64,000 nucleotides of DNA from an uncultured Gemmatimonadota bacterium (GTDB taxonomy: Bacteria > Gemmatimonadota > Gemmatimonadetes > Gemmatimonadales > Gemmatimonadaceae), in NCBI GenBank assembly GCA_903882745.1, contig CAIRYG010000011.1, positions 496,001-560,000 of the forward strand, read 5' to 3'. A program made the translations under genes and the position numbers. Shown here in pieces: positions 18,527 to 35,944 of this stretch. Position 1 is the first letter of the stretch, and the number at the start of each line of letters is the position of its first letter. The notes beneath the pieces are model-generated. The model did no database searches and had not been told where the DNA came from. It was given only the letters and a program-made list of their open reading frames with translations.

Positions 18527-21058
18527 TCAGCCGCACTCGCTGAACCCACAGACGTGGCACTTGACGCATCCTTCTGCGTACTCGAGCTGCGATCCGCAAT
18601 CCGGGCAGGTGCCGATGAACGACTCGGCATTGTTGTCGCCGGTGTTGAACATGGCGACCTGCTCCATGCCGCCGGTGCTCGTGCGAACGACCGCTTCGAT
18701 CGGACGCGCGGCACTGCTCGGGGACTGCGCCTGCGTGGTCTGCGAGAGGGAGAGCAGCTCCTGCTGCACGCCCTGCTTCATCCGCATCCAGTCTTCGAGC
18801 GCCAAGCCGATCGCGTCCGGGACCGAGAGGACCTTGTTCGGTCCGAGGCCAACGGCCTTGTCGGAGCTGATACCGCGCAGCTGGCGGTGGATCTCATTGA
18901 GCGAGATCCCCGAGCGCAGCGACAGCGAGATCATGCGGCCCATCGCCTCGGCGTCGGCCATAGCGGAACCGCCCGCCTTGCCGAGGTTGATGAACACTTC
19001 GAACGGCTGCCCCTTGTCGTCTTCGGTGATGTGGGCGAAGAGCACGCCGAGGGGGGTGTCCTTCTTGATGCTGGTGGAGCGCAGCGGGGTGTCCGGGCGT
19101 GCGCGCTTCTGACGGCGCTGGAGGTTCTCGGCCTCGGCGTCGAACAGCATCTTCTTGAGACGCTCGTTCTCGGCGCGGGACTCGGCCATCAGGCCGCTGA
19201 GCTCTGCGATTTCACGCTTGGCTTCGGCACTCGGGGCAGCGGCGCCTTCACCCTTGCGCTCCGCCTTGGCTGTCTCGGTGGCGCCGGTGCTGAGCACCTG
19301 GCCATCGCGGGAGCCGTCGCGATACACGGTGACGCCCTTGCAGTTCATCTTCCACGCGAGCGTGTAGATGTCGCGGACATCGTCCTTGGTCGCGGTATGC
19401 GCGAAGTTCGTGGTCTTGGAGATGGCGGAATCGCAGTGCTCCTGGAAGGCCGCCTGCATCTTCACGTGCCATTCCGGCGCGATCAGATTGGCCGTCACGA
19501 ACACCTTCTGCCACTTGGCCGGCACTTCGGCGTGCGCCACCGTGCCCGTCTTGGCAATGCGCTCCATGAGCGCCTCGCTGTACCACCCTTCCGCCTTCGC
19601 AATCGCCACGAAATCTTCGTTCACATCCGGCATCATCACGCCGGCCTGATTGCGCATGAACGCCACCGCGAAGAGCGGCTCGAGACCCGACGAGCAACCC
19701 GCGATGATCGAGATCGTGCCGGTCGGCGCGACCGTTGTGACGTTGCAGTTGCGCAGCATCTGCATCTCACGGACACGACCACCCGACGCGTCACGCGCGC
19801 AGGTCTCGTCCGGTCCAAAGATGCTCTGGCTCCACTCCGGGAAGGCGCCGCGCTGCTTGGCCAAGCGCTCGCTCTCCTTCTTTCCTTCGACGTCGAGGAA
19901 CTCCATCACGCGCTTACCGAACGCCACACCCTCTGGGGTGTCATAGGCAATGCCAAGGCGAATGAGCGCATCGGCAAAGCCCATCACGCCAAGACCAATA
20001 CGACGAATCCGCTTGGACAGCGCGTCGATCTCGGGGAGCGGGTACTTGTTGACGTCGATGATGTTGTCGAGGAAGTGCGTGCTGTGATGAATGTCGGCGG
20101 CGAACGCCGTCCAGTTCATCTCCCCATTCTCGACATAGTAGCCAACGTTGACCGAACCCAGGTTGCACACGTCGTATGGGAGCAACGGCTGCTCACCGCA
20201 CGGGTTGGTGGCCTCGTACGCCCCAAGGTGCGGCACCGGGTTGTAACGGTTCGCTTCGTCGATGAAGAACACGCCCGGCTCACCCGTGCGCCAAGCGCCG
20301 GTGATCATCTTGTCCCACACATCCGTCGACTTGAGCTGACCCGTGACCTGCTTGCTGACCGGATCGATCAGGTCATACTCAGCGTTGGCTTCCAATGCCT
20401 TCATGAAGGCGTCGGTGATGCCAACGGAGATGTTGAAGTTCACGACCTTCGTAAGGTCTTCCTTGCACGCGATGAAATCCAGAATGTCCGGATGATCCAC
20501 GCGCAGGATGCCCATGTTCGCGCCACGACGCGTGCCACCCTGCTTCACCGCATCGGTGCTGGCGTCGTACAGATTCATGAAGCTGATCGGGCCGCTGGCG
20601 ACACCCGTCGTCGAGCGCACCATCGAGCCCTTGGCGCGAATACGGCTGAACGAGAAGCCCGTGCCGCCGCCGCTCTGATGGATGAGCGCCATCGAACGCA
20701 ACGTGTCGTAGATGCCCGCGTGGCCATTCGACAGCGCATCGTCGACCGGCAACACGAAACAGGCCGACAGCTGCCCCAACGGGCGACCGGCGTTCATCAA
20801 CGTCGGCGAGTTCGGCTCGAACCGGCGCTGCGTCATCAGCTCATAGAACGTGTTCGCCGTGGCCTGAATTTCGGCGTCGCTGTGGCCGTAGCGGCGATCC
20901 GCCTCGGCAACCACAGTGGCAACACGCCAAAACATCTCCTCTGGCGTTTCCGTCGGCTTCCCCGACTTGTCCTTCACCAAATACCGCTTCTCGAGCACGG
21001 TACGGGCATTCTGCGACAGCGAAGCGGGAGAAGCGGGGGGGGTGACGGGCAAAGGCAT
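18527..21058 (-). CDS. nrdJ: Vitamin B12-dependent (class II) ribonucleotide reductase
   Basis: An 843-residue class II reductase making deoxyribonucleotides with adenosylcobalamin as radical source, so independent of oxygen. Visible features are [10 protein letters not shown] (redox cysteine), [15 protein letters not shown] (radical cysteine and catalytic Glu), [13 protein letters not shown], and a C-terminal zinc ribbon ([21 protein letters not shown]). The start is the ATG at 21058, because GGGAG lies nine bases upstream; an in-frame GTG at 21091 lacks this. No nrdAB or nrdDG gene is in the window. A long leader precedes it. Confidence 0.95.
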
Positions 21059-21603
21059 TATCTCAAACTCCCAAGGTGATGATTGGATCACTGCTTATGA
21101 ACGTATGCACTGCAACTGTGAGCGGGGCGGACCCCACTCCAACAGATGACTTCAGTTTTTCAAGGACCAACACCCTTCGGCCAATCTTGTCCTACCAAAC
21201 CACCAGTTTTTCAACACTTTTACGGCGGGAGAGCAAGCTACGAGCGTTCGTGTTTCCGCGCCACAACGACACAAACTGTTGGTATCAAACGACTTGCAAA
21301 ACGTACGTCACAGATTGGCGACTTAAGGCTGGATGAACATTACTTCCACCCCATCGATCGGACTGTCGCGTTTCCGAACATAAAGCCGCCAGTCCTACGA
21401 CACCCGAACGCACGCCGACTCCCAGAGACAAAATCCCACAGTCGCCCGGACCGGATTCCACGCATTTTTGCAATTCTTGGCGGGGAAGCATCATAGACAA
21501 TCGCGGACCGCGGCGGAAGGGACTTGCTCGCTCGCACGTGACCAATTAGCGGCCGCTTCCTCGTCAGATTGTCCGGCAACCGCGCCGCCCATCCCTCACG
21601 GCG
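21059..21603. promoter_or_regulatory. 545-bp gene-free leader upstream of nrdJ
   Basis: This is the only gap above 300 bp. It is noticeably less GC-rich than its surroundings, and the small open frames in it have no coding character. It holds an 11-bp direct repeat CAGTTTTTCAA at 21153-21163 and 21204-21214, 51 bp apart (TTGAAAAACTG on the nrdJ sense strand). I looked for a cobalamin-riboswitch B12 box and for NrdR boxes and saw neither. It most likely carries the nrdJ promoter and possibly a structured leader. Confidence 0.5.
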
Positions 21604-22107: not shown

Positions 22108-25062
22108 TTAGAACGAAGCTCCGACAGAGAAGTAGGCAGCGACGCGGCGGCCGCTCGAGTACACGGTGTTTAGCACGGGTGCGGCAACACCGAGCCGGAA
22201 TCGATAGGGGACATCGTATTGCAGCGCGGTGTCGAACTGAAGCTCGGCTCCTGCACTCTGCATCCACGCGCTCGCCGTTCCCTTCCCTCCGCACACAGTG
22301 GTGTTGGTGGTTCCCGCCGGGCACCACGCCGATGCGCCATCGGTGAACAGGGTGACATTCACCTTCTGCACAAAGAGCGGAAGGAGCAACCACCCGCGGT
22401 TCGGCTGCGCGAGCGGAATCCGCAACTCGGCGCTCGCACCGACGGCACTCGTCCCTACCTGCGCCCCCGCCGGAAAACCGCGCACAAAAAACGTGCGGCG
22501 CCCTTCCCCAATGGTGATGCCGGGAATGACGGACAGGATGCCTCCACTCACACCACCGGCCTCCAACGCACTCGCGGTCTTGTCGTCTTCCCACCCCGCG
22601 GCGACGCGCCCCGCGAGCACCGCATGCGCCGGACCACCAAAATCGAGCGCTTTGAAAAACTGCGCATAGCCGATGAGGCTGGTCGAGCGCGTGCTCGATG
22701 CGGCATCGGAACGCCAACGCTGGCGTGCTGTGCCTGCAATCTGCCACCCGTCTTCTGGTGAGATGCCGAGCGCCGTCGTGCGGGCATTCCCGAACCCGGC
22801 ATTCAAATAGAACGTTGGGTAGCTGTAGCTTCGCGCATAGCTACTGCCGAGTCGCGCGAGCAACGTCGACGGATTGGTGTCGAAGTCACGGAACTCCATG
22901 TTGAAGCCAAGCCCGCCATAGGCGTTACTGCGATATCGGGCCCGCACCGCGGTGACCGATCCACCGACGAAGCGCTTCCGACGCGAGAGTGTGCCGAGAA
23001 ACCGATGGAGCGAATCGGCAATCGCGAAATGGTCCCACTCGGCGTTGCTCGCGAGCCCGAGGACCGGATTCCCAACACCAGCGTAGGCGTAGGAGAGATC
23101 CCAGGTGGTCTCCGCCCGACCGAGATCGCGCGTGACCGTCGCATCGTAGCCGTGCCGGCCGATGGCGTCGGTACCACTGGTGAGGAATCCCCAACTGGTG
23201 CGCTGATCGTCGCTCATCGTGACGGTCGGGAGCCAGTAGGTTGGGAGGAGGGTGCGCCACGGGGAATACGTGGAGGCTTGTGCCTGCAACGCGCTGATCA
23301 CGATGGCGGTGTCACCGCGCGACGGGGCGAAGACGGTGGTGCTGTCCACGGTGACGCGCGGCGCGCTACTGGGAAACGTGGCCACGTGGTAGCCATCGCC
23401 ACGGTATTCACGTGTGGCGATCTGTGCGCCGTCGGGACTCACTTCGCTCTCGAATAATCCGGTCGGACTCTCGGCGATGCGCTCTGTGCCCCCCGTGGCG
23501 AGCTCCACGCGATACAGCGCCGCGCGACCGGTGCGGTCACTTGTAAAGTAGAGCGCCTCGTCGTGCGGCCCCCAACTCGGCGCGACCGTCACACCACGCG
23601 CGCGCGCATAGGCGCGCAACACGGTGCCGGGGGCGTCGAGGACGACGAGATCACTAACCCCGCCGCGCACGCGACGCGCCGCCACGATCCGGGAGCCGTC
23701 GTGCGACCAGCGCGGCTCGGCCCAGATGGTATCGAGCGCACTCGACGTGATGGGTGTGACCGTATCGCCCGAGACGAGCACGAGCCGACTGCTCCCAGGC
23801 GTCAGTTGCACCGCCACCGTTCGTGCGACGCACGCGCCCGTCGGCGACGCGCAGCGAGCGTCGGGCTGCACGAGTCGCGCGCCGGTGGTCAGACGCGTGG
23901 TGGTAGCAACGGTGCCGTCAATGCCGGGGGCCTCTCGGTAGAGGTCACTGCGCACCGTGTATGGATCGGTGAGATCATCCTGCGCAAAGACACGGCTCCC
24001 GTCGCGCAACGGCGACGTCGTGCCCGCGGTCGTGCGGTCGGCCAGCGCGCGGGTGGCGCCCGTGGCTGTGTTCACCACGTGCAGCGCGGGGAGGTCGCGC
24101 CCCGTATTCGCCGCGTAAATGAGTTCATTGTTGCTCGTCCAGCGAATGGCCTCGGCGGCCCAGCCGCGCGTGGTCAGCAAGGTCGGACGCGTCAGCTGCG
24201 TCGGTGCGCCGGCACTCCGGCGGGCGGTCCGCGCGACGGAATCGGACCAGGCGTGATACGCGCTGTCGAAGCTGATGCCGAACGACGCGGAGGCGTTTTC
24301 GTTCAGCAGGAACGGTACGGTGCGTGACGCCGTGGCTTCAATAAAGTCCCGAACTTTTGGTGCACCCTGCACGCGCGCGAGATAGTCGATCAGCAGCGAT
24401 CCATACGCATAGGGCACTTGTCCCAGCGGGAACTGCGTGGTGCTCGCCGACCAGGCATTGAGCGCGGGCGTCGTCCCGGCCAGCGCATTCGCCGACACGA
24501 TCATCGCGTGCTCGGAGCCGAGGATGCGTCCCGCGCCGGTGAGGCGCGATTCGTAGTACACCGCGATCCCCTCATCCATCCAGCTTGGCGTGAAAATGCC
24601 TGGGAACAGGAGCGGATTCCGGCCGAAGACACGCTGCGCGAGCCCCCACCAGCCGGCGGAGCGGTCGAGATGAAAGACATGCGTCAGTTCGTGCGTGAGC
24701 ACGAGGTCGAACCAATCGTCGAGGAACTTGAGTGCGGTGCCGTCGACCGGTGGACGGGCGTACACCACGATCCGATTACTCGGAAAAAGTGTCGCGTAGC
24801 CGTTGCTGTAGTCGACGTTGTCGGCAATGACTAACTCCACCGGGCCGCGTGGTGCTACCAGTTCGGCAGCGAGACGTCCCCACGCCCGCTCGGCGCTTCC
24901 GGCGGCGCGGCGCGCGACCGTCTCTAATCCGGTGGCGTAGTGCACGCGGAAGTGCGTGGTCTGGATCGATTCCCAATGCAGGTTGGGGGCCACCTGTGCG
25001 GCGAGCGGGTGCGGCCGTATCGTCGCGCACGCGATGAGCAGCACGCCGAGGAGTCGACGCAT
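22108..25062 (-). CDS. Peptidase-MA-like / TolB-like / outer-membrane beta-barrel protein
   Basis: A 984-residue exported protein in three parts. After a signal peptide (LLGVLLIACATIRPHPLAAQ) comes a gluzincin-like domain with HELTH near residue 124 and the downstream WMDEGIAVYYE element. The middle, about residues 280-560, holds TolB-like propeller blades (WSHDGSRIVAARR, FTSDRTGRAALYRV, VSPDGAQIATREY). The last third is rich in alternating aromatic strands and ends in YFSVGASF, typical of an outer-membrane barrel inserted by Bam. It overlaps the amidase stop by one base (TAATG) and abuts the carbonic-anhydrase-family gene. It may be a surface peptidase; activity is untested inference. Confidence 0.82.
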   Translation of the reverse strand: MRRLLGVLLIACATIRPHPLAAQVAPNLHWESIQTTHFRVHYATGLETVARRAAGSAERAWGRLAAELVAPRGPVELVIADNVDYSNGYATLFPSNRIVVYARPPVDGTALKFLDDWFDLVLTHELTHVFHLDRSAGWWGLAQRVFGRNPLLFPGIFTPSWMDEGIAVYYESRLTGAGRILGSEHAMIVSANALAGTTPALNAWSASTTQFPLGQVPYAYGSLLIDYLARVQGAPKVRDFIEATASRTVPFLLNENASASFGISFDSAYHAWSDSVARTARRSAGAPTQLTRPTLLTTRGWAAEAIRWTSNNELIYAANTGRDLPALHVVNTATGATRALADRTTAGTTSPLRDGSRVFAQDDLTDPYTVRSDLYREAPGIDGTVATTTRLTTGARLVQPDARCASPTGACVARTVAVQLTPGSSRLVLVSGDTVTPITSSALDTIWAEPRWSHDGSRIVAARRVRGGVSDLVVLDAPGTVLRAYARARGVTVAPSWGPHDEALYFTSDRTGRAALYRVELATGGTERIAESPTGLFESEVSPDGAQIATREYRGDGYHVATFPSSAPRVTVDSTTVFAPSRGDTAIVISALQAQASTYSPWRTLLPTYWLPTVTMSDDQRTSWGFLTSGTDAIGRHGYDATVTRDLGRAETTWDLSYAYAGVGNPVLGLASNAEWDHFAIADSLHRFLGTLSRRKRFVGGSVTAVRARYRSNAYGGLGFNMEFRDFDTNPSTLLARLGSSYARSYSYPTFYLNAGFGNARTTALGISPEDGWQIAGTARQRWRSDAASSTRSTSLIGYAQFFKALDFGGPAHAVLAGRVAAGWEDDKTASALEAGGVSGGILSVIPGITIGEGRRTFFVRGFPAGAQVGTSAVGASAELRIPLAQPNRGWLLLPLFVQKVNVTLFTDGASAWCPAGTTNTTVCGGKGTASAWMQSAGAELQFDTALQYDVPYRFRLGVAAPVLNTVYSSGRRVAAYFSVGASF

Positions 25063-27020
25063 TATCGCTCGTCGCGAAGGTCGCGGAAATATCTGAGGAG
25101 CCCGTCGGCAATGCCCATCGCATAGCGCTGTTGAAACTCGGGCGTGCGCAACGCCGCCTCCTGCTCGGGAATGATGACGAACGCGCCTTCGCAGAGCACG
25201 GCCGGCATCCAGGTGAGGCGTGCAACCGCGAGGTTGTCGTAGTTGATCCCCTGGTCGCGAAGTCCCATGCGATCGACCAGCCCCTGCTGAACAAGGCGGG
25301 CGAGCGGTTCGGAGTGATCCAGAAAGAAGTAGGTGCCGGAGCCGTTCGCGCCTTTGGTTGGGTTCACCCCATCCGGCCAGGCATTGAGATGAATACTCAC
25401 GAAGGCGTCGCCGTCGGCACGACGTGCGATACTCGGGCGTGCGGCGAGGGCCACCGCGGCCCGGGTGGTGCGCGTCATCACGACGGTCGCACCGCGCTCC
25501 TCGAGCAGTGCTTTGAGTTTCTCCCCGACGCCGAGTGTCACATCACCCTCGTAGAGCCCTGTTGGTCCGGTTGAGCCAATCGGGGGATGTCCGGGGTCAA
25601 CAACAATCGTGCGCCCCGCAAGCGGGCGGAGCGGATCGATCACCGGCGCATGCCGCACGCGTAGCACGAGCGCGCTGCGATCCCACAGCACACCGTAGCC
25701 CGCGCTCGGATGGCGCAGGTGAATCGTGTAGCGCACACGGTTGGTGGCGAGTGTTTCCCACGTGACATCGCGCACCATCGGATCGGTGGTGGCAAAGTTG
25801 ATAAGATCGGTATTGGCGGTCACGCCGTAGAGCGTGAGCATGATGGCATCGCGCGTTTGCGTGACGAGGTAGGGCGCCCGGTCGCTCATGCTGAGCCGGA
25901 CATCGCTCCAGTGTCCGTTCACCGACACGCGCCCGGTGGTGACGGTCCGCCGCGGCACATTCATCTCGGGGCGATCGCGCGTGGACTTGGTCTCCACCCA
26001 GGCTTCGAGTTGATCGTCGAGCCGGACGCGCGACCACTCACCGCGGATCCCGGTGAGTTCCACCGTGGTGCCGGGGAAGAGCGCCCACTTGTATGTCCCG
26101 TCTGGTGCAGGACGCAGGTTGACGACTTTGTCGGTGTCGGACGGTGCGTCGTTGTTCGCGAGGAGCTCGACGAACCGCGGCACCGTGGTGTCCATCTGCT
26201 GCACCGCCCCGGTGGCCACACTCACCTTGTCGGTCCCGCGTGTGACCTCGATGGTCCCCGGCTGGGCGAAGTCGCGCGCCGCGACCTCCGTGCTCCACGA
26301 CACCCCGCTGGTGTGTCGCAGGGGGAGCGTCTCCCCCGCCGCGGTGCGCAGGACGACGGAGGCGTTTGCAGGCGCACGGAGTGCGACGCGCACCCGCTCA
26401 TCGCTCCGGAGCATCAGCTTGCCGGCCGGCGCCACCGATCCGCGGTCCACCAGGAGCGCCCCGTTGTCGGGCAGCGGTGTCGCGAGGGGGCGGAGCGCCA
26501 CCGTGAGGAGCGTGGCGACGCTATCGGCGTCGCGCCGCGCGACGAGTTCATATCGCGGCTTCTCGCCCCGAGGGACGGCCAGCCAGGCCATGAATGCGCC
26601 ATTCGGCTGCACCGTGACCGCGGTGCCGTTGATGGTCAGCGTCGCGCGGCCGGACCCCACGGAGCCGAACATAAAGTTCGAGTCTCGCGCCGTCAGCGTC
26701 TGCCCGGACGACGGGTACACGACCTTGATGGCCAATCGGCCGTCGACCAACGGGATTGGCGGCAGCGGCGGCGCAGGAGTGTTCGCCCGGTCGTTCCCCG
26801 TCAACTCCACGGAACCGGCGGGCCGCCGGGATGCCGTATCGGCCCGCGAGGGGGACGAGGCGAGCGGCGGCGCTGCCGACACGGGAGCGGGCGCGGGCGC
26901 CGGAGCGGGGGGGGGCGCGCATGCCGCCACAGCCACACTGATCGCGAGCGGGATCGCGAGCGGGGTCGCGACCGGGAGCTGCGCCCAACGGAGGGCCGGA
27001 ATACGGATAGACGTTGCCAT
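25062..27020 (-). CDS. N-acetylmuramoyl-L-alanine amidase, lipoprotein
   Basis: A 652-residue cell-wall amidase. The N-terminus has a hydrophobic signal with lipobox VAAC (C34), then a Pro/Ala linker. Central beta-rich regions include an SH3-like segment (KWALFPGTTVELTGIRGEW) and an AMIN-like segment. The C-terminal Amidase_3 domain carries zinc ligands in VVDPGHPP, LYEGDV and SIHLNA, and the catalytic Glu in VLCEGAF. It hydrolyses the amide between MurNAc and the stem peptide. It is the first gene of an operon with the peptidase/barrel and carbonic-anhydrase-family genes. Confidence 0.93.
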   Translation of the reverse strand: MATSIRIPALRWAQLPVATPLAIPLAISVAVAACAPPPAPAPAPAPVSAAPPLASSPSRADTASRRPAGSVELTGNDRANTPAPPLPPIPLVDGRLAIKVVYPSSGQTLTARDSNFMFGSVGSGRATLTINGTAVTVQPNGAFMAWLAVPRGEKPRYELVARRDADSVATLLTVALRPLATPLPDNGALLVDRGSVAPAGKLMLRSDERVRVALRAPANASVVLRTAAGETLPLRHTSGVSWSTEVAARDFAQPGTIEVTRGTDKVSVATGAVQQMDTTVPRFVELLANNDAPSDTDKVVNLRPAPDGTYKWALFPGTTVELTGIRGEWSRVRLDDQLEAWVETKSTRDRPEMNVPRRTVTTGRVSVNGHWSDVRLSMSDRAPYLVTQTRDAIMLTLYGVTANTDLINFATTDPMVRDVTWETLATNRVRYTIHLRHPSAGYGVLWDRSALVLRVRHAPVIDPLRPLAGRTIVVDPGHPPIGSTGPTGLYEGDVTLGVGEKLKALLEERGATVVMTRTTRAAVALAARPSIARRADGDAFVSIHLNAWPDGVNPTKGANGSGTYFFLDHSEPLARLVQQGLVDRMGLRDQGINYDNLAVARLTWMPAVLCEGAFVIIPEQEAALRTPEFQQRYAMGIADGLLRYFRDLRDER

Positions 27021-27150
27021 TGCGCACTACCATAATGCGCGGCCCTGCCTAGCCGCTACCCATGGACCTGCCTATATTCGCCCAACGGTCATTTAAGACG
27101 CTGAATTCCGGACCGGCTCGGCTCATCACTTGCAGGGAGACAGGACCACC
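27021..27150. promoter_or_regulatory. Divergent promoter region, amidase operon versus FHA/kinase operon
   Basis: A 130-bp gap between divergent operons. TATATT at 27073-27078 on the plus strand is a five-of-six match to a -10 box, but the -35 position at the right spacing (TAGCCG) is poor. AGGGA (27134-27138) could serve as the ribosome binding site for the GTG at 27151. Confidence 0.3.
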
Positions 27151-27903
27151 GTGACGCGTTGCAGTGGGTGCGGATGTGAAAGCGTCAATGACGCGCGATT
27201 CTGTCGCGCGTGCGGCACGCCCATCACCAATGGCGGCGCGGGGCTGCCCATGTCGGACGGCCCTGTTCGCCTGTCCCGACTCAGTGCGACGCGCGCTGTG
27301 CTCGAGGAGTTCACCCTCACCGGCCAGCACATCGCCATTGGGCGCGAGGACGGTGACCTGACCTTCGCCCATGACGCCTACGTGAGCCCGGTGCATGCCG
27401 TGCTCTCGCGACGTGCCGGCGAACTCTTTCTCCGCGACCTTGGCGCACGGAACGGCACCTGGCTGTTCCTCGATGCCCCCTACCGCCTGCAGGACGGCGA
27501 CACGATTCTGGTGGGATCGCAGATGATCGGGTTTCGTCGACTGGGCTACCCCGCACCGCACCCCCCTGAGGCCGATCAGACCCGACGGTTGGGCTCGCGC
27601 GTGCCGGGCGCCGACATTGCTGTGCTCGAGCAACTACGTTCCGATGGCAGCGCGCGCGACACCATGTTCCTGTCACCCGGACGCAGCGTGAAGATTGGCC
27701 GTGAGTCGGGCGATTGGACGTTCCCGTACGACAAGACCATGAGTGGGAAACACGCCGAGATTCGCAATGAAGACCTCGAGTTCATTGCCCTCGATGATGG
27801 CAGCAGGAACGGTGTCGCCGTCGCCGTGCGCGGCGAACGCCAGGTGAAGGTGGGACAGCGTATCTTGATTGGAGACCAGACCTTGCGCGTGGAGAGCTTG
27901 TGA
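27151..27903 (+). CDS. Zinc-ribbon protein with two FHA domains
   Basis: A 250-residue cytoplasmic protein. The N-terminus is a zinc ribbon (CSGCGCESVNDARFCRACG). Two FHA phosphothreonine-binding domains follow: IAIGREDGDL..SPVHA..RNGT (about residues 45-120) and VKIGRESGDW..SGKHAE..SRNGV (about 165-245), both with the Gly-Arg, Ser-x-x-His and Asn-Gly core. I chose the GTG at 27151, which begins right at the ribbon, rather than a TTG seven codons upstream. It overlaps the kinase gene by 4 bp (GTGA), so it is probably a substrate or adaptor of that kinase. Confidence 0.87.
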   Translation: MTRCSGCGCESVNDARFCRACGTPITNGGAGLPMSDGPVRLSRLSATRAVLEEFTLTGQHIAIGREDGDLTFAHDAYVSPVHAVLSRRAGELFLRDLGARNGTWLFLDAPYRLQDGDTILVGSQMIGFRRLGYPAPHPPEADQTRRLGSRVPGADIAVLEQLRSDGSARDTMFLSPGRSVKIGRESGDWTFPYDKTMSGKHAEIRNEDLEFIALDDGSRNGVAVAVRGERQVKVGQRILIGDQTLRVESL

Positions 27904-29645
27904 ACAACCTGAAAATCTGCCCCACCTGCGGCACCGAATATCCACTGTCCGAGCGCTTTTGTCCGCGCGACGGCTCGGCGCTCCGTACGGCAGGGGGCGA
28001 GGCGAATGATCTCGTCGGCCAGATTGTTGCGCAGTTCCACATCATCAAAAAGCTCGGCGAAGGCGGCATGGGCCAGGTGTACCTCGCCGAGCATGTGAAG
28101 ATGCAGCGGAAGGCCGCGCTGAAGGTGATGAACCCGGGGATGACACAGGACCCCGACGCCATTGCCCGATTCAATCGCGAAGCCAACAACGCGAGCAAGA
28201 TCAACCACCCGAACGTCTGTCAGATTTTCGACTTCGGAGAAACGCCGGAAGGGCTGATTTTCCTCGCGATGGAGTTCATCGAGGGGATGTCGCTCACGGC
28301 GTTGATTGAGAAGAACGGCTCGCTACCAGCACCGCGTTCCGCGTCGATCATTCATCAAGCCGCTGACGCGTTAGGGGTGGCCCACGATTACGGCATCGTG
28401 CATCGCGACCTCAAGCCCGACAACATCATGATCGCCCGGAATCGCGACGGGAGCGACATGGTGAAGGTCGTGGACTTCGGCATCGCAAAGGCGAGCACGA
28501 GTGACGCGCAGAAGGTGACCAAGACCGGACTGGTCGTGGGCACCCCGGAGTACATGAGTCCTGAGCAGCTCGCGGGTGACCAACTCGACGGGCGGAGCGA
28601 CATCTACTCGCTGGGTCTCGTGGCATTCAACTGCCTCACCGGCAAACTGCCGTTCCCGAGCAACTCGGCGCAGGAAGCCATGATCATGCGGCTTACCGAC
28701 CAGCCCAAGAAGCTGGCGGATATGAAGCCCGACGTGCAGTGGTCCGCGGAGTTGCAGGGTGTGATGGACAAGGCCCTCGCGCGCGACGCCAATGAGCGGT
28801 ACCAGACCGCGCCGGAATTTGGGCGCGACATGGCGCGGGCGGTCGAGAAAATGCCCGCGACCGTTGTGGCCGATATGGGCACGATGGTGATCAGCGCCAA
28901 CGCGGCTTCGGTACCCGCGACCCGTGTGGCGGCCCCTGCTGAAAAGGCGCTGTCCGCCGCGCCCGCGGCCGGCGCGACGCCGACGGCACCGGCTGCACCC
29001 ACCAAGAGTGGCCTGAACCCCGCCGTCATTGGCGGTGGCGTCCTGGCCGTCGCTGGCATCGCGTTCTTTGCGATGCGCGGCGGCGGTGCGAAACCGGAGC
29101 CTGCGGTGTCGGCACCGACGGCAGCGGTGGAAACCGCGACCGTGGTGAGCGCCTCCACCAGCCCAGCCCCGACACCCGCCATCACCAAGGGCGGCGACAG
29201 CAAGAAGCCTCCCGTTGGCGCGACGCAGAACATGTCCAAGGATCTCAAAACCAGCACCTCGAAGGCTGCGGAGAGTAAGGCGCCAGCCAACGGCGGAGCT
29301 TCGACGAGTGCACCAGCACCGTCGGCCCAACCGTCGGCCCAACCGTCGGCACCGCCTGCGGCGGCTGCCGTCACCACCGCAAGTCCAGAGGCGCTCTACG
29401 ATCGGGTGTACGCCAAGAGCGCATCGAAGGACGACGCGCGCGCGGTGGTCGGCCTCCTGAGTGCCTCGTACATGGAGAACTTGAAGGGGCCGAGCTTGGG
29501 CACCGCCTACACGGCGCAGGCACTCGCCTTCTCGCTCCTTGGCCGCGATGGCGAAGCGTGCACGGCTGCCAAGCGGGCGCAGGCCGCCGGTGCGACGAGC
29601 AAGACCAAGAATGTGATTGAGACCTTCACGGGAGCCTGCCCGTGA
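27900..29645 (+). CDS. Transmembrane Ser/Thr protein kinase with N-terminal zinc ribbon
   Basis: A 581-residue Hanks-type kinase. Residues 1-29 form a ribbon-like motif (CPTCGTEYPLSERFCPRDG; C7, C10, C21). The kinase domain spans about 47-310 with GEGGMGQVY, Lys75, HRDLKPDN (from H168), DFG at 192 and GTPEYMSPEQL. A Pro/Ala linker, one membrane helix (GGGVLAVAGIAFFAM, about 375-390) and a 190-residue extracytoplasmic tail follow. The tail has a short PSAQ repeat and an all-helical end. It starts with GTG overlapping the FHA gene. All catalytic residues are intact. Confidence 0.95.
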   Translation: MNNLKICPTCGTEYPLSERFCPRDGSALRTAGGEANDLVGQIVAQFHIIKKLGEGGMGQVYLAEHVKMQRKAALKVMNPGMTQDPDAIARFNREANNASKINHPNVCQIFDFGETPEGLIFLAMEFIEGMSLTALIEKNGSLPAPRSASIIHQAADALGVAHDYGIVHRDLKPDNIMIARNRDGSDMVKVVDFGIAKASTSDAQKVTKTGLVVGTPEYMSPEQLAGDQLDGRSDIYSLGLVAFNCLTGKLPFPSNSAQEAMIMRLTDQPKKLADMKPDVQWSAELQGVMDKALARDANERYQTAPEFGRDMARAVEKMPATVVADMGTMVISANAASVPATRVAAPAEKALSAAPAAGATPTAPAAPTKSGLNPAVIGGGVLAVAGIAFFAMRGGGAKPEPAVSAPTAAVETATVVSASTSPAPTPAITKGGDSKKPPVGATQNMSKDLKTSTSKAAESKAPANGGASTSAPAPSAQPSAQPSAPPAAAAVTTASPEALYDRVYAKSASKDDARAVVGLLSASYMENLKGPSLGTAYTAQALAFSLLGRDGEACTAAKRAQAAGATSKTKNVIETFTGACP

Positions 29646-29763: not shown

Positions 29764-30957
29764 GTGCTCCCTGTGACTGAGAACCCACTGCACGGCGGCG
29801 GCTTAGTCCGCGTCCACGTCTTCGGCAAGACGGACGTCGGTCGAACACGCGAACACAATGAGGACGCGTTCCTCGTCGCTGACCTCACGACGATGGACAA
29901 TTCGCTCGGTCCGCAGGTGCAAAACCATGCGCTCGGCGATCGCGGCACCTTGTTCATGGTCGCGGACGGCATGGGTGGAGCCGCCGCCGGCGAGATTGCC
30001 AGCGCGATCGCTACGGAAGTGGTCCTGAGCGAGCTCGACTCCAAGTGGTGCCGGTCAGGAATCAGCGATCCCGAGACATTTGCGGTCGCCATCAAGGCGG
30101 CCACCGAGGCTGCCAACTCGCGCATTCATCGGTACGCCGCGGAGCATCCTGAAAACCGGGGCATGGGGACGACGGCGACGATCGCCGGTATGCTCGGCGA
30201 CACGCTCTACTTGGCGCAGGTGGGCGATAGCCGCGGGTATTTCATCCGCGATGGCGTCGCGCAGCAGATCACCAAAGATCAGTCGTTGATGCAGAAACTG
30301 ATCGAAGCGGGTGAGCTGACCCCTGAAGAGGCCGAGGTCAGCGACCGCCGCAATATCATTCTGCAAGCCCTCGGTCCGGAGTCGACCGTACGGGTGGATC
30401 TCACCCATCAGCAGGTGCGCCGCGGCGACATTTTGGTTCTGTGCAGCGACGGCCTGTCGGGGCAGATGCACACGCCGGACATTGCCCGCATTGTCACCGC
30501 CCGGCTTCCTGACCTTGAGGGTGCCTGCACCGACTTGATTGCGCTGGCCAATGAGAACGGCGGCCCAGACAACATCACGGTGATTGTGGCGCAGTTTGAC
30601 GGTGAGGGGCTGTCGCACTCCGACGGCATCGCACTGGTCGGGCATCGCGTGTACACCGGTGAGATGGATGCGCGCCCGACGATCCGCGTGTCGGCGTCGG
30701 ACCTTCCGCCAGAGACGGACGAAGAGCGTCGGGCCTCGGGCGGTGCGGCAGTGTCATCGACCTCGCCGTCTGGGGTGCCGGCAACGGCGGGTGGACGATC
30801 GGATATTCCGATCACGCGTGAAGGCGCGAGTCAGCCGCGCCCCGCTGCGACGCCCGCCGGTCAAGAGGCGCGCGTCTCCGTTGGGGTGCTCCGACTGCTG
30901 TTCGGCGTCATCGCCGCCGCAGTTGTCCTCTGGATCTTCTTTCGCAATCGCAGCTAA
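29764..30957 (+). CDS. PP2C-family Ser/Thr protein phosphatase, membrane-anchored
   Basis: A 397-residue PPM/PP2C phosphatase. Metal-binding and catalytic motifs are intact: RTREHNEDAF, VADGMGG, GTTATI, QVGDSRGY, LCSDGLSG and GGPDNITV. The catalytic domain is about residues 15-290, then a Ser/Pro/Ala linker and a C-terminal membrane helix (LLFGVIAAAVVLWIFF). It would reverse phosphorylation by the upstream kinase. The start is a GTG at 29764; another GTG three codons later is equally possible because neither has a clear ribosome binding site. Its stop overlaps the next ATG (TAATG). Confidence 0.93.
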   Translation: MLPVTENPLHGGGLVRVHVFGKTDVGRTREHNEDAFLVADLTTMDNSLGPQVQNHALGDRGTLFMVADGMGGAAAGEIASAIATEVVLSELDSKWCRSGISDPETFAVAIKAATEAANSRIHRYAAEHPENRGMGTTATIAGMLGDTLYLAQVGDSRGYFIRDGVAQQITKDQSLMQKLIEAGELTPEEAEVSDRRNIILQALGPESTVRVDLTHQQVRRGDILVLCSDGLSGQMHTPDIARIVTARLPDLEGACTDLIALANENGGPDNITVIVAQFDGEGLSHSDGIALVGHRVYTGEMDARPTIRVSASDLPPETDEERRASGGAAVSSTSPSGVPATAGGRSDIPITREGASQPRPAATPAGQEARVSVGVLRLLFGVIAAAVVLWIFFRNRS

Positions 30958-32381
30958 TGCGCGTTGAACTTGCCATTACGTCTGGCGCTCGCGCCGGACA
31001 GAAAGAACTGCTCGAGATGCCGCTCATTCGCATTGGGCGGCATCCGGCCAATGACGTGCGCTTTCATCCGGAGCTCGACACCGACGTCTCCGGCATGCAT
31101 TGCGAGATCAAGGTGATTGGCGCGCGGTTGATGATTCACGACAGCAACAGCACAAACGGCACGTTCGTCAACGGCGAGCGGGTGCGCGAAGACCGCCCCA
31201 TTTACGACGGCGATGTGATCGGCCTCGGCGCGCATGGCCCGCAACTCACGCTCGGTGCGGCGGCAGCACGTCCGCCAGAGGCGACGCGTGTGGCCAGCAG
31301 CCGGGATGCGGCCGTTGCCGCCAATGCCAGCGCGCGCGCAAGTGTTGCGGCACCAGCGAGCGCTGGGCGGCTCGACACGCAGGCCCGCGTTGCCATTGCC
31401 GTCAAGGAGCAGACGAACTCGCTCCGCACGATGGTCATCGGACTCGCGGTCGTCGTCGTGCTCGTTGTAATCGGCGTGGTCGCCTACGGGAAACGCTCCG
31501 GCGACAAAGCCGAACAAGACCTAAAGGCAGCGCTCGCGCGCAATGATTCGCTCAGCGCGCTGGTGACGAAGACGGTTGGCGCGATGAAGGGCAAGGTCGG
31601 AGGCCTCGACTCCGCGCTCGCGTTGAGCAAGGCGGAAGGGGACAAACTCCGCAGCGAGCTCGCCAATGGCAGCAAGAGCGGAGACCTCACGCAGCGATTG
31701 CTCGCGGCCGAAAGTCGGCAGCGCCAGATTGTGTCGGCGGCACAACTCGATTACGAAGCAATCGCCGCCAAGAGCTCGCCCGCGGTCGTGTTTATCGCCG
31801 TGCAGTTGCCCAGCGGGAAGAAAGTCTCCGGCTCGGGATTTAATGTCCTTCCCTCCGGACTCATTGTCACGAACAAGCACGTCGTACAAGACGAAAACGG
31901 CGGAGCCGCCGTTCGGATTGCTGTGGAGTTCGACAAAACCAAGGCGGCGTGGATGCCTGGTCATGTGGTGAAGGTCAGCGAGACGGACGACTTGGCCTGG
32001 ATCAAGCTCGACCGCGAAGGTCCGTTCCCGACGGTCGCTGGTGTGTCGCGGACGCCCGACATTCGCGTGGGTGTGCCGGCAGCCATCATCGGCTACCCGC
32101 TTGGCACTTCCACGGCGGGGATGGAAGGCGACATCTCCAGCCTCCTCGCCGTGTCGACGCTCGGCGTGGCGACCGTGAGCAAGGTGCTCGAGAACGTGAT
32201 CCAGTTCGATGCGTTCGCTGCCGAGGGATCGAGCGGAAGCCCGATCTTTGACTCCCGTGGCTATGTGATCGGGGTGCTGTACGGCGGGGCTGCCGAGAGC
32301 GGTGGTCGCATTATCTACGCGGTGCCGGCACGCAAACTCGCCGAACAGATGCCCGCCGACGCGCAGGGAATCGTTCGCTAG
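30957..32381 (+). CDS. FHA domain, transmembrane helix and HtrA-like serine protease fusion
   Basis: A 474-residue protein. An N-terminal FHA domain (IRIGRHPANDV, SGMHCE, NSTNGTF; about 5-95) is followed by an Ala-rich linker, one membrane helix (about 157-178) and a coiled-coil-like stretch (about 185-260). The S1C trypsin-like domain has H308 in TNKHVV, D344/D345 in TDDLAW and Ser426 in GSSGSP. There is no PDZ domain. The predicted topology puts the FHA domain inside and the protease outside, so phosphothreonine binding could control envelope proteolysis. The fourth gene of the kinase operon. It ends tail-to-tail with nagZ, both stop codons sharing the palindrome CTAG at 32378-32381. Confidence 0.92.
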   Translation: MRVELAITSGARAGQKELLEMPLIRIGRHPANDVRFHPELDTDVSGMHCEIKVIGARLMIHDSNSTNGTFVNGERVREDRPIYDGDVIGLGAHGPQLTLGAAAARPPEATRVASSRDAAVAANASARASVAAPASAGRLDTQARVAIAVKEQTNSLRTMVIGLAVVVVLVVIGVVAYGKRSGDKAEQDLKAALARNDSLSALVTKTVGAMKGKVGGLDSALALSKAEGDKLRSELANGSKSGDLTQRLLAAESRQRQIVSAAQLDYEAIAAKSSPAVVFIAVQLPSGKKVSGSGFNVLPSGLIVTNKHVVQDENGGAAVRIAVEFDKTKAAWMPGHVVKVSETDDLAWIKLDREGPFPTVAGVSRTPDIRVGVPAAIIGYPLGTSTAGMEGDISSLLAVSTLGVATVSKVLENVIQFDAFAAEGSSGSPIFDSRGYVIGVLYGGAAESGGRIIYAVPARKLAEQMPADAQGIVR

Positions 32382-33859
32382 CGGGCGTTGTGCAGCAGGC
32401 CGCGTGCCAACACGCGCGCGGCCGACGTTTGCATGAGTGACGATCCATCCCACGCGCACACGATGCGTGGCGCGTCCGAGAGCGCCGCAGCATGACGCGG
32501 GTGCCCAAACAAAACCACCGTGGCGTCCCGCGATTGCGCGGCCGCCACAGCAACCGCACGGGAGACTGCCGCCCGCGCCTGCTCTGACGGACCATCGTAG
32601 CCCTTCCAGGCGATCACGTCGCAGTACACGGCAATAAGCACCGGGACCTTGGTGTGCCGCGTGGGTTCCTGCACAACAGGAGCGTCGACGTCGAGGGTGC
32701 GCAACGTGGATTCGAACGCTCCACGCACCGGCGCGGGCCATGGCCCCACGGCGTCCTCGTCGACGACGACGACTTCAACAGCCTGCGCAAAGTGCGGCGC
32801 TGCCCCCCGTATGACGTGGACCGCGCGGTCGGCGGCTTGCCGGACCCACATCCGATCGTCCAAGGAGATGTCGCGCGTTGTGCCCGACGACGCCCATCCG
32901 GCCCAACGCGTACGACGCGCGATGGCCTCGCGCACCCGTTCGGGGTCGAGCTCGCCATCGTGGATGGCGTTGGTGATTGCCGCCACCGCCTCGTACGGGT
33001 CGGCCACGCCAAGGAGCACATCACAGCCGGCAGCGAGCGCGCTCACGCAAACTGCCGCCTCCGTGCCGAGCGCGCGCACGGCACGCATGTCCACGGAGTC
33101 GCTCACAATGAGCCCGTCGAATTCCATCGACTCCCGCAGCAACTCGGTGGCAATGGGCACCGAGAGCGAGGCTGGCAGATCACGCGGGTCGAGTGTGGGA
33201 TAGCGCACGTGCGAGATCATAATGCTGCCGACGCCGCTGTCGATCACCGCGCGAAACGGCGCGAGATCGTCGCGCCACAGTTCCTCCGGCCTGGTAGCAA
33301 CGACAGGCGCCTCGAGGTGCGAATCTCCATGCGCGCGCCCATGCCCAGGAAAGTGCTTGGCGCACGCGAGCACGCCCTCGGCTTGGCAGGCATCGATCCA
33401 CTCGCTCACGAAGGCCGCCACGCGGTGGGGATCGGCGCCTGCGGAGCGCACGCTAATGACGGGCGACCCCGGCGGCAGGTCGAGATCGCAGACGGGGCCG
33501 AGCACCCAGTTGAGACCGAGCGCCCGGAGTTCGCGCGCGGTGATGCGCGCGGCGCGGCGCGCGATCCCTGAGTCGTCATGCAGCGCGAGCGCGCCGAGTG
33601 CGCCGAGTGGGGGAAGCTCCGTGCAGCCCTGGTACTGCTCCCCTGCCCCGCGTTCGGCGTCGGAGGCGAGCAAGAGCGGCTCGCGGGAGGCTGCCTGCAG
33701 GGCTGCGGCCAGTGCGGCCACTTGGTCGTGCGGACCGCCGCGGAGAATGAACCCACCCACGCCCAGTTCGAGCGCGTCTTCAATTCCCTCGCTCAGATAC
33801 GCAAAGCCATTCGACGCGTCCCAGGGGAGCGCCGGCACGAGGAGCGAGGCGACGTTCAC
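32378..33859 (-). CDS. nagZ: Beta-N-acetylhexosaminidase (GH3)
   Basis: A 493-residue GH3 enzyme releasing GlcNAc from GlcNAc-anhydroMurNAc in peptidoglycan recycling. It shows KHFPGHGRAHGDSH (substrate-binding Lys-His and the acid/base His-Asp dyad) and the nucleophile Asp in LIVSDSVDM. After the TIM barrel there is a C-terminal alpha/beta domain of about 150 residues, as in two-domain Gram-positive NagZ proteins. I chose the GTG at 33859, seven bases after the anmK stop; the longer open frame has no family homology. No signal peptide is seen, so it is probably cytoplasmic. Confidence 0.9.
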   Translation of the reverse strand: MNVASLLVPALPWDASNGFAYLSEGIEDALELGVGGFILRGGPHDQVAALAAALQAASREPLLLASDAERGAGEQYQGCTELPPLGALGALALHDDSGIARRAARITARELRALGLNWVLGPVCDLDLPPGSPVISVRSAGADPHRVAAFVSEWIDACQAEGVLACAKHFPGHGRAHGDSHLEAPVVATRPEELWRDDLAPFRAVIDSGVGSIMISHVRYPTLDPRDLPASLSVPIATELLRESMEFDGLIVSDSVDMRAVRALGTEAAVCVSALAAGCDVLLGVADPYEAVAAITNAIHDGELDPERVREAIARRTRWAGWASSGTTRDISLDDRMWVRQAADRAVHVIRGAAPHFAQAVEVVVVDEDAVGPWPAPVRGAFESTLRTLDVDAPVVQEPTRHTKVPVLIAVYCDVIAWKGYDGPSEQARAAVSRAVAVAAAQSRDATVVLFGHPRHAAALSDAPRIVCAWDGSSLMQTSAARVLARGLLHNAR

Positions 33860-33866
33860 GCGGCGT

Positions 33867-35033
33867 TCACGCTGGGGTGAAGCTCCCGAGCACCCGCGCG
33901 CCGCGCGCGCCCGTCGCCGAGGGGACGTTGCCGGGGACGCCGTCCAGATGCAGCGCGCCGAGGAGTGCGAAGGCGACCGCTTCCTTGGCTTCGCCGTCAA
34001 AGAAGAGATCGTCGAAGGGCACAACGCGCCGGGTCAGAAAGCCTGGCGCCGCCGGAACGGTAGCAAGCGCCCGCTCGATCGCAGCGACGAGCGCGGGATT
34101 CCGCGCACCGCCGCCCGAGAGGACGATCTCCGCCACCGGCTCGGGGGTGAACCGTGCGAAGGCGAGCGCGATGCTGTGCGCGGTGAACGCTGTTGCTGTG
34201 GCGACGATGTCGGGAACCGAGCAGTCGGGACGCGCGTGCAGGCAGCGTGCGATGAAGGCATCGACGAAATCGGGCGTGAACAACTCGCGGCCGGTGCTCT
34301 TGGGTGGTTCGGCGTGAAAGAAGGGCAGGTCGAGGAGGTCGTTGACGATGTCGTCGAGTGGCGTGCCCGCGAGCGCCAGGGCACCGTCGGTGTCAAAGAG
34401 CATCCCGGGTACGAGGGCCCGCACCACCGCATCGATGACGCACACGCCAGGACCCGTGTCGAACGCGCGTACGGCGCTCAGTTCTGGACGAGGTCCGGGC
34501 GGCACGATGGTGATGTTGCCGATTCCGCCAATATTCTGCAGCGCGCGCCAGTGCGTGGGGGCACAAAAGAGGAGCGCGTCCGCGATGGGAACGAGCGGCG
34601 CACCCTGTCCACCCGCAGCAACATCGCGCACGCGGAAATCACTGATCACCGCAATGCCCGTGCGCTCGGCGATGACCGCCGGCTGCCCGAACTGCCAGGT
34701 GGCGTAGGGCGGCTCGTGCCACACCGTGTGACCGTGAGAGGCAATTGCGGAGATGTCGCTCCGCGGTACGCCGCTGTCGGCGATGGCTTGCACGGCCGCG
34801 TCGGCGAGCCAGCCGCCGAGCGCGAAGTCGAGACGTGTGGTCTCGGCGGGATTCGTTCCCACCATCACATCCGCGAGTCGTGCGCGTTGCACGCTGGAGT
34901 ACGGGCGCGACACGAACGAGAGCAACTCGACACTGCGCAGCCCGTCGTCCGCCGTGCGAAAGCGTGCGACCGCCGCGGAGATTCCGTCGAGCGAGGTGCC
35001 CGACATGAGTCCGACCAGGATCCGTTCGTTCAT
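33867..35033 (-). CDS. anmK: Anhydro-N-acetylmuramic acid kinase
   Basis: A 388-residue sugar kinase that opens the 1,6-anhydro ring of anhydroMurNAc and phosphorylates it to MurNAc-6-phosphate. It begins with the family signature MSGTSLDGI and carries QNIGGIGN, FDTGPG and LSGGGARNPALVAAI. It overlaps murQ by one base (TAATG) and is followed by nagZ, so three consecutive steps of muropeptide recycling are encoded together. Confidence 0.96.
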   Translation of the reverse strand: MNERILVGLMSGTSLDGISAAVARFRTADDGLRSVELLSFVSRPYSSVQRARLADVMVGTNPAETTRLDFALGGWLADAAVQAIADSGVPRSDISAIASHGHTVWHEPPYATWQFGQPAVIAERTGIAVISDFRVRDVAAGGQGAPLVPIADALLFCAPTHWRALQNIGGIGNITIVPPGPRPELSAVRAFDTGPGVCVIDAVVRALVPGMLFDTDGALALAGTPLDDIVNDLLDLPFFHAEPPKSTGRELFTPDFVDAFIARCLHARPDCSVPDIVATATAFTAHSIALAFARFTPEPVAEIVLSGGGARNPALVAAIERALATVPAAPGFLTRRVVPFDDLFFDGEAKEAVAFALLGALHLDGVPGNVPSATGARGARVLGSFTPA

Positions 35034-35944
35034 TAGATTGGCACCGGGATGGGGCCGATAATTTCGCGCACGAAGCCCGCCTTGATGTCGAGCAGCGTGA
35101 GTGCGCGTTCGCGGGTCACCTGCTTCTCGTGCATCACGATGGCGACTTTCACGCTGCCGCCCGCATTGTCGATTGCATCGCGCGCAGTGGCCCGATCGGT
35201 CTTGCAGACTTCCATGAAAATCCGTTCTGAACGGTCGACAAGCTTCGTGTTCGTGGCCATGAGATCGACCATCAAGTTGCGGTAGGTCTTCCCCATGCGG
35301 ACCATCGCGCCCGTGGAGATCATGTTGAGCACGAGCTTCGTCGCGGTACCGGCTTTCATGCGCGTGGATCCCGTGAGCACCTCAGGGCCTGTGTCCACGT
35401 GGATGAGGATGTCGGTGGCCTTCCGCATTTCCGGAAGCGGCGTCGCGCAGCAGATCAGGGCGGTGGGACACCCCAGACCACGCGCAAATTCCAGCGCTGC
35501 TCGGACATAGGGCGTGTTGCCGCTGGCGGCCACGCCAATCACGAAGTCACCCACCACGAGCTGAATCTCGACCAAATCCTGTCGTCCGCCATCCGGACGG
35601 TCCTCGGCACCTTCGATAGGGTTTCTGAGCGCCCGCTCGCCGCCCGCGATCAACCCTACAAAGCGCCCCGGCTTCTCCCCAAAGGTTGGAGGGATCTCGC
35701 TCGCATCGAGCACGCCCAGTCGTCCGGAGGTGCCCGCACCGATGTAGACGATCCGACGTCCGTGGCGGAGGGCGTTTTCCGCCGTCGCGATCGCGGTCGC
35801 GATCGGGACGCGTTGGGCGTGGACGGAGTCGGCGACCGTCTGGTCCTCGGCGTTTATCAGGTCGGCGATCTGAAGTGGCGTGGCCAGATCCAGGTCGACA
35901 GTCCGGGGGTTCGGGAGTTCGGTTTCGCGAAGCGGATGAGACAC
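35033..35944 (-). CDS. murQ: N-acetylmuramic acid 6-phosphate etherase
   Basis: A 303-residue SIS-domain etherase that removes lactate from MurNAc-6-phosphate to give GlcNAc-6-phosphate. It shows IVYIGAGTSGRLGVLDASEIPPTF, GVAASGNTPYV and the conserved STRMKAGTATKLVLNMIST. Length and motifs match the family. First gene of the murQ-anmK-nagZ unit, divergent from the gamma-glutamyltransferase gene. Confidence 0.97.
   Translation of the reverse strand: MSHPLRETELPNPRTVDLDLATPLQIADLINAEDQTVADSVHAQRVPIATAIATAENALRHGRRIVYIGAGTSGRLGVLDASEIPPTFGEKPGRFVGLIAGGERALRNPIEGAEDRPDGGRQDLVEIQLVVGDFVIGVAASGNTPYVRAALEFARGLGCPTALICCATPLPEMRKATDILIHVDTGPEVLTGSTRMKAGTATKLVLNMISTGAMVRMGKTYRNLMVDLMATNTKLVDRSERIFMEVCKTDRATARDAIDNAGGSVKVAIVMHEKQVTRERALTLLDIKAGFVREIIGPIPVPI

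Follow-up and report, generated by a model that had tools for sequence, protein, structure and literature searches.

By which route does a bacterial Ser/Thr kinase reach events outside the membrane? Such routes are, in our judgement, mostly unknown, and a compact candidate for one was found in a stretch of 64,000 nucleotides of DNA (the window) from an uncultured bacterium of the Gemmatimonadota, family Gemmatimonadaceae (assembly GCA_903882745.1, contig CAIRYG010000011.1, positions 496,001 to 560,000). The gene in question is the last of a four-gene operon that encodes a protein with two forkhead-associated (FHA) stretches, a Ser/Thr kinase, a PP2C phosphatase and the protein studied here, the FHA-protease, in which an FHA domain precedes a predicted transmembrane helix, a spacer and a serine protease domain of the S1C type (Table 1). 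A reader of phosphorylation, a helix and an effector would be combined in one protein, and lineages that have lost the kinase serve as natural negative controls; the locus also offers a defined signalling module for a little-studied phylum. The central result is that the protease gene was found intact in 67 of the 71 scored loci that possess the kinase and in 2 of the 48 that lack it, and that none of the 48 has lost the PP2C gene, which is located between the two. We consider it about as likely as not that the membrane-tethered protease is the extracytoplasmic arm of the operon's kinase, gated via docking of its FHA domain.

Domains and predicted topology of the FHA-protease

The start codon of the FHA-protease gene shares one base with the stop codon of the PP2C gene (TAATG). 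An earlier note on this DNA, made from the letters and their translations, had described an FHA domain and a trypsin-like domain flanking one membrane helix, and this arrangement was confirmed by Pfam and by hydropathy. The FHA match reaches 64.7 bits (Pfam cut-off, 20.7) and contains all three elements, namely, GR, SxxH and NG, by which the available text of PMC1262709 defines the motif. The Pfam families found on the protein are FHA, the FHA-like Yop-YscD_cpl and trypsin families, and none other. The PDZ domain, which the note had reported as absent, was indeed not detected by any Pfam model at E ≤ 0.001, and 34 residues remain past the protease match. Sequence relatives of the protease domain in the PDB are HTRA1, HhoA and MarP (3k6y). 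Two further matches to the FHA-protease were identified in the same 3.06-Mb genome (E ≤ 0.001); since both possess Trypsin_2 and PDZ domains and lack FHA, the window gene is the sole FHA-protease found in this genome.

Residue conservation was assessed in 49 aligned proteins and in a larger alignment of 95 rows, which includes two repeat genomes (L151 = L001 and L028 = L046). The FHA residues G27, R28, S45 and H48 are found in all 49 proteins and N67 in 48, and the FHA string GRSHNGN is retained in 90 of the 95 rows. Of the triad proposed earlier (H308, D344 or D345, and S426), H308, D345 and S426 are conserved: the His and the Ser are each present in 48 of the 49 proteins, failing in the same one, and position 345 is D in 44 and E in 5. 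D344 is not conserved, that position being mostly A (22/49). Over the 95 rows the triad reads HDS in 71, HES in 18 and otherwise in 6 (RDA in two, SDA in one, RGP in one, absent in one and cut by a contig end in one). On the juxtamembrane part of the protein, the Thr residues T141 and T153 are found in 30 and 33 of the 49 proteins, respectively.

Between the FHA and protease domains, a segment with a hydropathy of at least 1.6 was found in 43 of the 49 aligned proteins, with 6 below this value, and in 70 of a larger set of 80 intact copies, of which 77 reach at least 1.2 and the lowest 0.82. A second, marginal hydrophobic segment (residues 393-411, 1.64) lies inside the protease domain of the window protein. 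The distance from the helix end to residue 270 has a median of 95 residues (range, 35 to 118) in the 80 copies. Compared with the far side of the helix, the FHA side has the higher net charge in 69 of these copies, the window included, the lower in 3 and an equal one in 8. The positive-inside rule favours a cytoplasmic FHA domain and an extracytoplasmic protease domain, which supports, as a predicted topology, the placement given in the earlier note.

A survey of 298 Gemmatimonadota genomes, in which at most five candidates were scored per genome, returned near-full-length matches in many genomes from the family and order to which the window belongs and in some from its class. Given that near-full-length homologues occur in the phylum down to about 29% identity and in conserved gene order, the architecture is, as judged from these alignments, not a chance product. 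The nearest named relative is a Gemmatimonadetes metagenome-assembled genome with 89% identity (L001); beyond it, the scan of genome contigs gave five matches, limited to the protease part, and no place in a plasmid collection covered 80% of the query.

Joint retention of protease and kinase

The counts given above derive from 137 fetched loci, which were scored for a kinase beside the PP2C gene and for intactness of the protease. Eighteen had no resolved state, namely, 14 with an unresolved kinase and 4 kinase-bearing loci (G298, G130, G303 and G225) in which the protease is cut by a contig end or gap. Forty loci (L159-L198) had been chosen by a PP2C match without a protease match, the rest mostly by a protease match and none by the kinase. 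Inspection by eye placed G263 and G041, which formed a gap in the automatic scoring, among the loci without an intact protease; the frame-split gene of G261 was scored as not intact like that of G076 (scored as intact, it would give 68/71), and G132, in which a fragment of the kinase remains, was counted as lacking it. The scoring did not extend to the 13 loci with FHA- or S1-type proteins of other kinds (L086-L098).

Among the 46 kinase-less loci without an intact protease, 40 have no recognisable copy and 6 have decayed copies. Triad residues are lost in G284, G237 and G193, which belong to one genus, and in G108 and G041, and the gene of G263 is reduced to a 111-residue FHA stub. G195 fits this pattern and was left uncounted on account of its short flank: here the kinase is missing between the double-FHA and PP2C genes, and the protease gene stops after the helix. 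A series within one genus suggests that the kinase is lost before the protease: both genes are intact in G037, an intact triad stands beside a kinase remnant in G132, and the triad is dead in G108 and G041, where the kinase is missing; G167, of the same genus and among those with an unresolved kinase, has an intact triad, the kinase being off its contig.

To what extent the losses are independent was estimated on a quick PP2C tree that covers 117 loci and has 41 of its 114 branches open; it requires a minimum of 11 changes in the kinase and of 14 in the protease. Nine independent pairs differing in the kinase were identified on supported branches, and the protease follows in 8.7 of them on average and goes the opposite way in none (median p, 0.0039; range, 0.0039 to 0.0156). 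The figure is 8.6 with G261 scored as broken and 8.7 with G261 and G076 dropped. The same test on the neighbouring GH3 gene gave 1.1 pairs the same way versus 1.0 opposite, a control of little power because GH3 differs in only about 2 pairs. The upstream double-FHA gene tracks the kinase more loosely, with 5.7 of 9 pairs the same way and none opposite.

The locus kinase seems to be truly lost, and not moved, within the limits of these draft genomes, as concluded from whole-genome searches and a kinase tree. The searches covered 28 kinase-less or suspected genomes, namely, 26 of the 48 plus G091 and G195. In 19 of them there was no kinase match better than E 1e-75, and in the other 9, all of the window's family, matches ranged from E 1e-103 to 1e-115; kinase-bearing genomes searched in parallel gave E 1e-99 to 1e-188. 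One genome, G176, contains both the locus kinase (1.3e-160) and another kinase (2.3e-113). In the kinase tree, a quick tree with six long end branches flagged, a single branch sets the 28 locus kinases of the window's family apart from the rest; outside this group stand 11 non-locus kinases, ten from eight of the nine genomes and one from G176.

The FHA domain shows a corresponding pattern. Loss of phosphopeptide-binding residues in homologues had been named in the earlier note as the observation that would speak against it; for N67, such loss was found only where the kinase is also lost. All 69 readable kinase-bearing copies retain the residue, compared with 4 of 8 kinase-less copies, the losses representing two events at most (one genus with three genomes, and G213). 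Given the joint retention, the pair test and the confinement of N67 loss to kinase-less copies, the protease and the operon's kinase probably work together, and the data suggest that the two form one signalling unit.

Proposed gating of the protease and competing explanations

How might such a unit operate? From the architecture, the intact FHA motif and triad of the window protein, the operon and the joint retention, all of which were computed directly, we infer a scheme that also covers the topology, the binding of a phosphopeptide, gating in a given direction, the part played by the PP2C and the substrate. The cytoplasmic FHA domain would dock on a phosphothreonine made by the operon's kinase, which may be located in the TxT activation loop of the kinase, at T141 or T153 of the FHA-protease itself or on a third protein. 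Docking would cause the protein, with its one helix, to cluster or re-orient, and this change would be relayed by helix and spacer to the outer S1C domain, which, once activated, would cut a cell-envelope protein; the PP2C would then reset the signal. Of 75 kinase-bearing loci, 65 have the TxT doublet (VTKTGLVVGT in the window), which was identified by pattern in 44 and by eye in 21; of the remaining loci, 9 gave no loop by pattern and 1 is without TxT. We take this loop to resemble the activation loop of PknB. The broader proposal, that a one-protein transmembrane effector allows a Hanks-type kinase to activate proteolysis outside the cell, and that this new kinase output is a module widespread in Gemmatimonadota with FHA-transmembrane-trypsin relatives, is made more tentatively, and we lean somewhat against it.

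Several observations weigh against the gating scheme. The protease gene is absent in spite of a kinase in G110 and G232, both of one genus, and frame-split beside a kinase in G076 and G261. Conversely, the intact triad of G132 stands beside a kinase remnant of 231 residues that lacks the N-lobe (80 bits), and kinase-less G213 has an intact triad together with a change of the FHA residue N67 to A. The helix segment falls below a hydropathy of 1.6 in 10 of the 80 intact copies. A Glu replaces the catalytic Asp in the 18 HES rows, all of which belong to the window's genus or to one other genus of its family, so that protease activity is doubtful in those copies; the window itself has Asp at this position. 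A structure prediction from two sequences, those of the window and L001, was of low confidence (pLDDT 34, pTM 0.23) and was not used. Lastly, the joint loss is silent on which partner acts on which.

This last point leads to the main rival of the gating scheme, which we consider unlikely but less so than the other alternatives: the kinase itself may be the target, FHA docking on the phosphorylated kinase allowing the protease to trim the kinase's outer domain as a feedback from outside. Joint retention is equally expected if the kinase is the substrate, and the operon kinase has one predicted transmembrane helix (residues ~374-392; hydropathy, 2.04) and an outer segment. Moreover, in other kinases of four genomes a weak Trypsin_2 match, passing the cut-off in one of them, follows the helix, so that both domains meet in one chain. 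If trimming were the function, however, the kinase should often outlive the protease, yet this was seen in only 4 of 71 loci (two with the gene absent, two frame-split).

A protease engaged in constitutive quality control, which the FHA domain merely places at sites of kinase activity and does not gate, appears quite improbable. S1C relatives do serve quality control in the cell envelope, and G213, with its triad kept and its FHA residue changed in a kinase-less genome, would fit such a role; however, the protease is missing or decayed in 46 of the 48 kinase-less loci, and for this task the genome could draw on its two other proteases, which have Trypsin_2 and PDZ domains. Least probable of all is the decay of the locus as a block, with joint loss and no functional coupling, for although kinase and protease share one operon and the upstream double-FHA gene tends to follow the kinase (5.7/9 pairs), the PP2C gene between the two is retained, GH3 is not associated with the kinase in a control of little power, and several protease copies stay in place yet lose catalytic residues.

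Known systems, relatives and neighbouring genes

As far as literature searches show, the conserved operon of kinase, PP2C and FHA-protease and the joint loss of kinase and protease are new: in openly licensed PMC articles, represented mostly by titles and abstract openings, nothing was recognised as this operon or co-loss. The individual elements are already known, namely, an FHA-FHA-trypsin protein, inside-out control of a protease (LapD-LapG) and a membrane-anchored periplasmic protease (MarP). The architecture is not rare within Gemmatimonadota and, as prior art, a 2008 survey tabulated an FHA-FHA-Tryp protein (NP_811686.1) of Bacteroides thetaiotaomicron, given in its available text as one protein in one species with no topology, operon or tested function (PMC2605481). 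Compared by description only, that protein likewise combines FHA with a trypsin-family domain that follows it in the same chain but differs in its two FHA domains.

The label HtrA-like, used in the earlier note, was found to apply to the protease domain and not to the whole protein, which scores far under the cut-offs of the HtrA and MarP families. The likeness to HtrA, DegP, DegQ and DegS lies in the sequence of the protease domain and in the His-Asp-Ser triad, whereas in place of PDZ the window protein has an FHA domain and a transmembrane helix, and it reaches 66.9 bits versus a cut-off of 416.2 for TIGR02037 (HtrA/DegP). MarP (Rv3671c) is described in the available text of PMC6628586 as a membrane-anchored periplasmic chymotrypsin-like protease with four transmembrane helices that cleaves RipA. 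The window protein resembles it as a membrane-anchored protease, its own outside location being predicted, but has one helix before the protease domain in place of four and obtained 62.5 bits versus a cut-off of 250 for the MarP model NF033740. To our knowledge, MarP has neither a PDZ nor an FHA domain.

In the LapD-LapG system a periplasmic protease is under the control of a signal from the cytoplasm, on the other side of the inner membrane, which the available text terms inside-out (PMC3032545); there, the signal is cyclic di-GMP and not phosphothreonine, receptor and cysteine protease are two proteins, and that text names no FHA domain. No cyclic di-GMP-binding domain or cysteine protease was found by Pfam in the FHA-protease. 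For mycobacteria, the text available for PknQ-MupFHA reports docking of an FHA domain on the kinase activation loop and FHA genes beside kinases and phosphatases (PMC4238996), and PknB is stated in a reference title to recruit GarA via its activation loop. Unlike the window operon, the PknB-GarA and PknQ-MupFHA pairs are without a protease. GarA is a soluble FHA protein.

Within the phylum, L086-L092 represent a family of proteases with two FHA domains, nearer in domain count to NP_811686.1, with a hydrophobic segment by eye, a long spacer that looks helical and a trypsin domain that looks intact; domain scans covered L086 and L089, and the genes are mostly not directly beside matches to the operon queries. 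L094-L096 are single-FHA trypsin forms with insertions and, by eye, a hydrophobic segment between the domains, and in L095 and L096 (genomes G019 and G155) such a form adjoins a kinase and a PP2C gene, a placement that speaks for the kinase-linked scheme. The other kinases with a weak Trypsin_2 match after the helix were found in G139 (E 2.2e-7), G029 (2.7e-5), G089 (7.9e-5) and G155 (0.0049). Of the four, only the match in L219, with the best E of 2.2e-7, passes Pfam's Trypsin_2 cut-off; no triad was recognised in the three that were read, and these regions are perhaps a pseudoprotease sensor.

Table 1. Features of the window and of related loci (window coordinates unless a locus is named)
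Feature	Position	Strand	Basis
FHA-transmembrane-spacer-S1C protease gene	30957..32381	+	open reading frame with ATG start, 474 residues
FHA domain, residues 24-91; GR 27-28, SxxH 45-48, NG 67-68	31026..31229	+	Pfam PF00498, E 1.1e-17
Predicted transmembrane helix, residues 158-176	31428..31484	+	mean Kyte-Doolittle 3.07
Spacer, residues 177-268, helical or coiled-coil by eye	31485..31760	+	inferred from sequence
Trypsin_2 / S1C protease domain, residues 292-440	31830..32276	+	Pfam PF13365, E 6.3e-21
Triad codons H308; D345; S426	31878-31880; 31989-31991; 32232-32234	+	
Double-FHA protein, without transmembrane segment (best 19-mer hydropathy 0.61)	27130..27903	+	Pfam FHA, two stretches
Ser/Thr (Hanks) kinase	27900..29645	+	Pfam Pkinase, E 5.9e-51
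PP2C phosphatase (Stp1-like), predicted C-terminal transmembrane helix (2.58)	29764..30957	+	Pfam PP2C_2, E 1.2e-12
Amidase_3 (N-acetylmuramoyl-L-alanine amidase), divergent neighbour	25062..27020	-	Pfam, E 3.1e-35
GH3 family glycosidase, NagZ-like by inference, convergent neighbour	32378..34024	-	Pfam Glyco_hydro_3, E 2.9e-65
AnmK anhydromuramic acid kinase	33867..35033	-	Pfam AnmK, E 1.2e-88
SIS domain protein, MurQ-like by inference	35033..35944	-	Pfam GKRP_SIS_N, E 1.6e-18
Ser/Thr kinases of ~870-930 residues	L219:2522-5224; L220:2546-5257; L225:1450-4065; L227:91-2892	-; -; +; -	weak, degenerate-looking Trypsin_2
Loci with HES triad	L039-L043, L152, L153, L155, L158, L012, L016, L018-L022, L024, L025		

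The remaining operon genes show further features. The N-terminus of the kinase contains zinc-ribbon-like Cys pairs, where the Pfam family Zn_Ribbon_1 stays under its cut-off; Pfam detected no PASTA repeats in this kinase, and NF033483 gave 303.6 bits versus a cut-off of 450. Cys pairs in the double-FHA protein, read from the sequence with no Pfam match, likewise suggest a zinc ribbon. The PP2C reaches 225.4 bits for the NCBIfam model Stp1_PP2C_phos, whose cut-off is 230.

A cell-wall function of the operon, read from the Amidase_3, GH3, AnmK and MurQ-like neighbours, was considered and set aside as weak, because these neighbours persist where kinase and protease are gone and because five neighbour queries found no match, within flanks of a few kb, at nine class-level loci with kinase and protease (L077, L078, L080-L085 and L206). 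The PP2C gene stays between the Amidase_3 gene and the GH3, AnmK and MurQ-like genes in most of the loci without kinase and protease (L159-L198), and its persistence among murein genes hints that the phosphatase may have a separate cell-wall role. The upstream double-FHA gene persists without kinase or protease in L165, L176, L178, L180 and L185. In L076, a protein similar to the 854-residue product of window positions 18527-21091 (minus strand), presumably akin to B12-type ribonucleotide reductase, is encoded close upstream of the PP2C gene.

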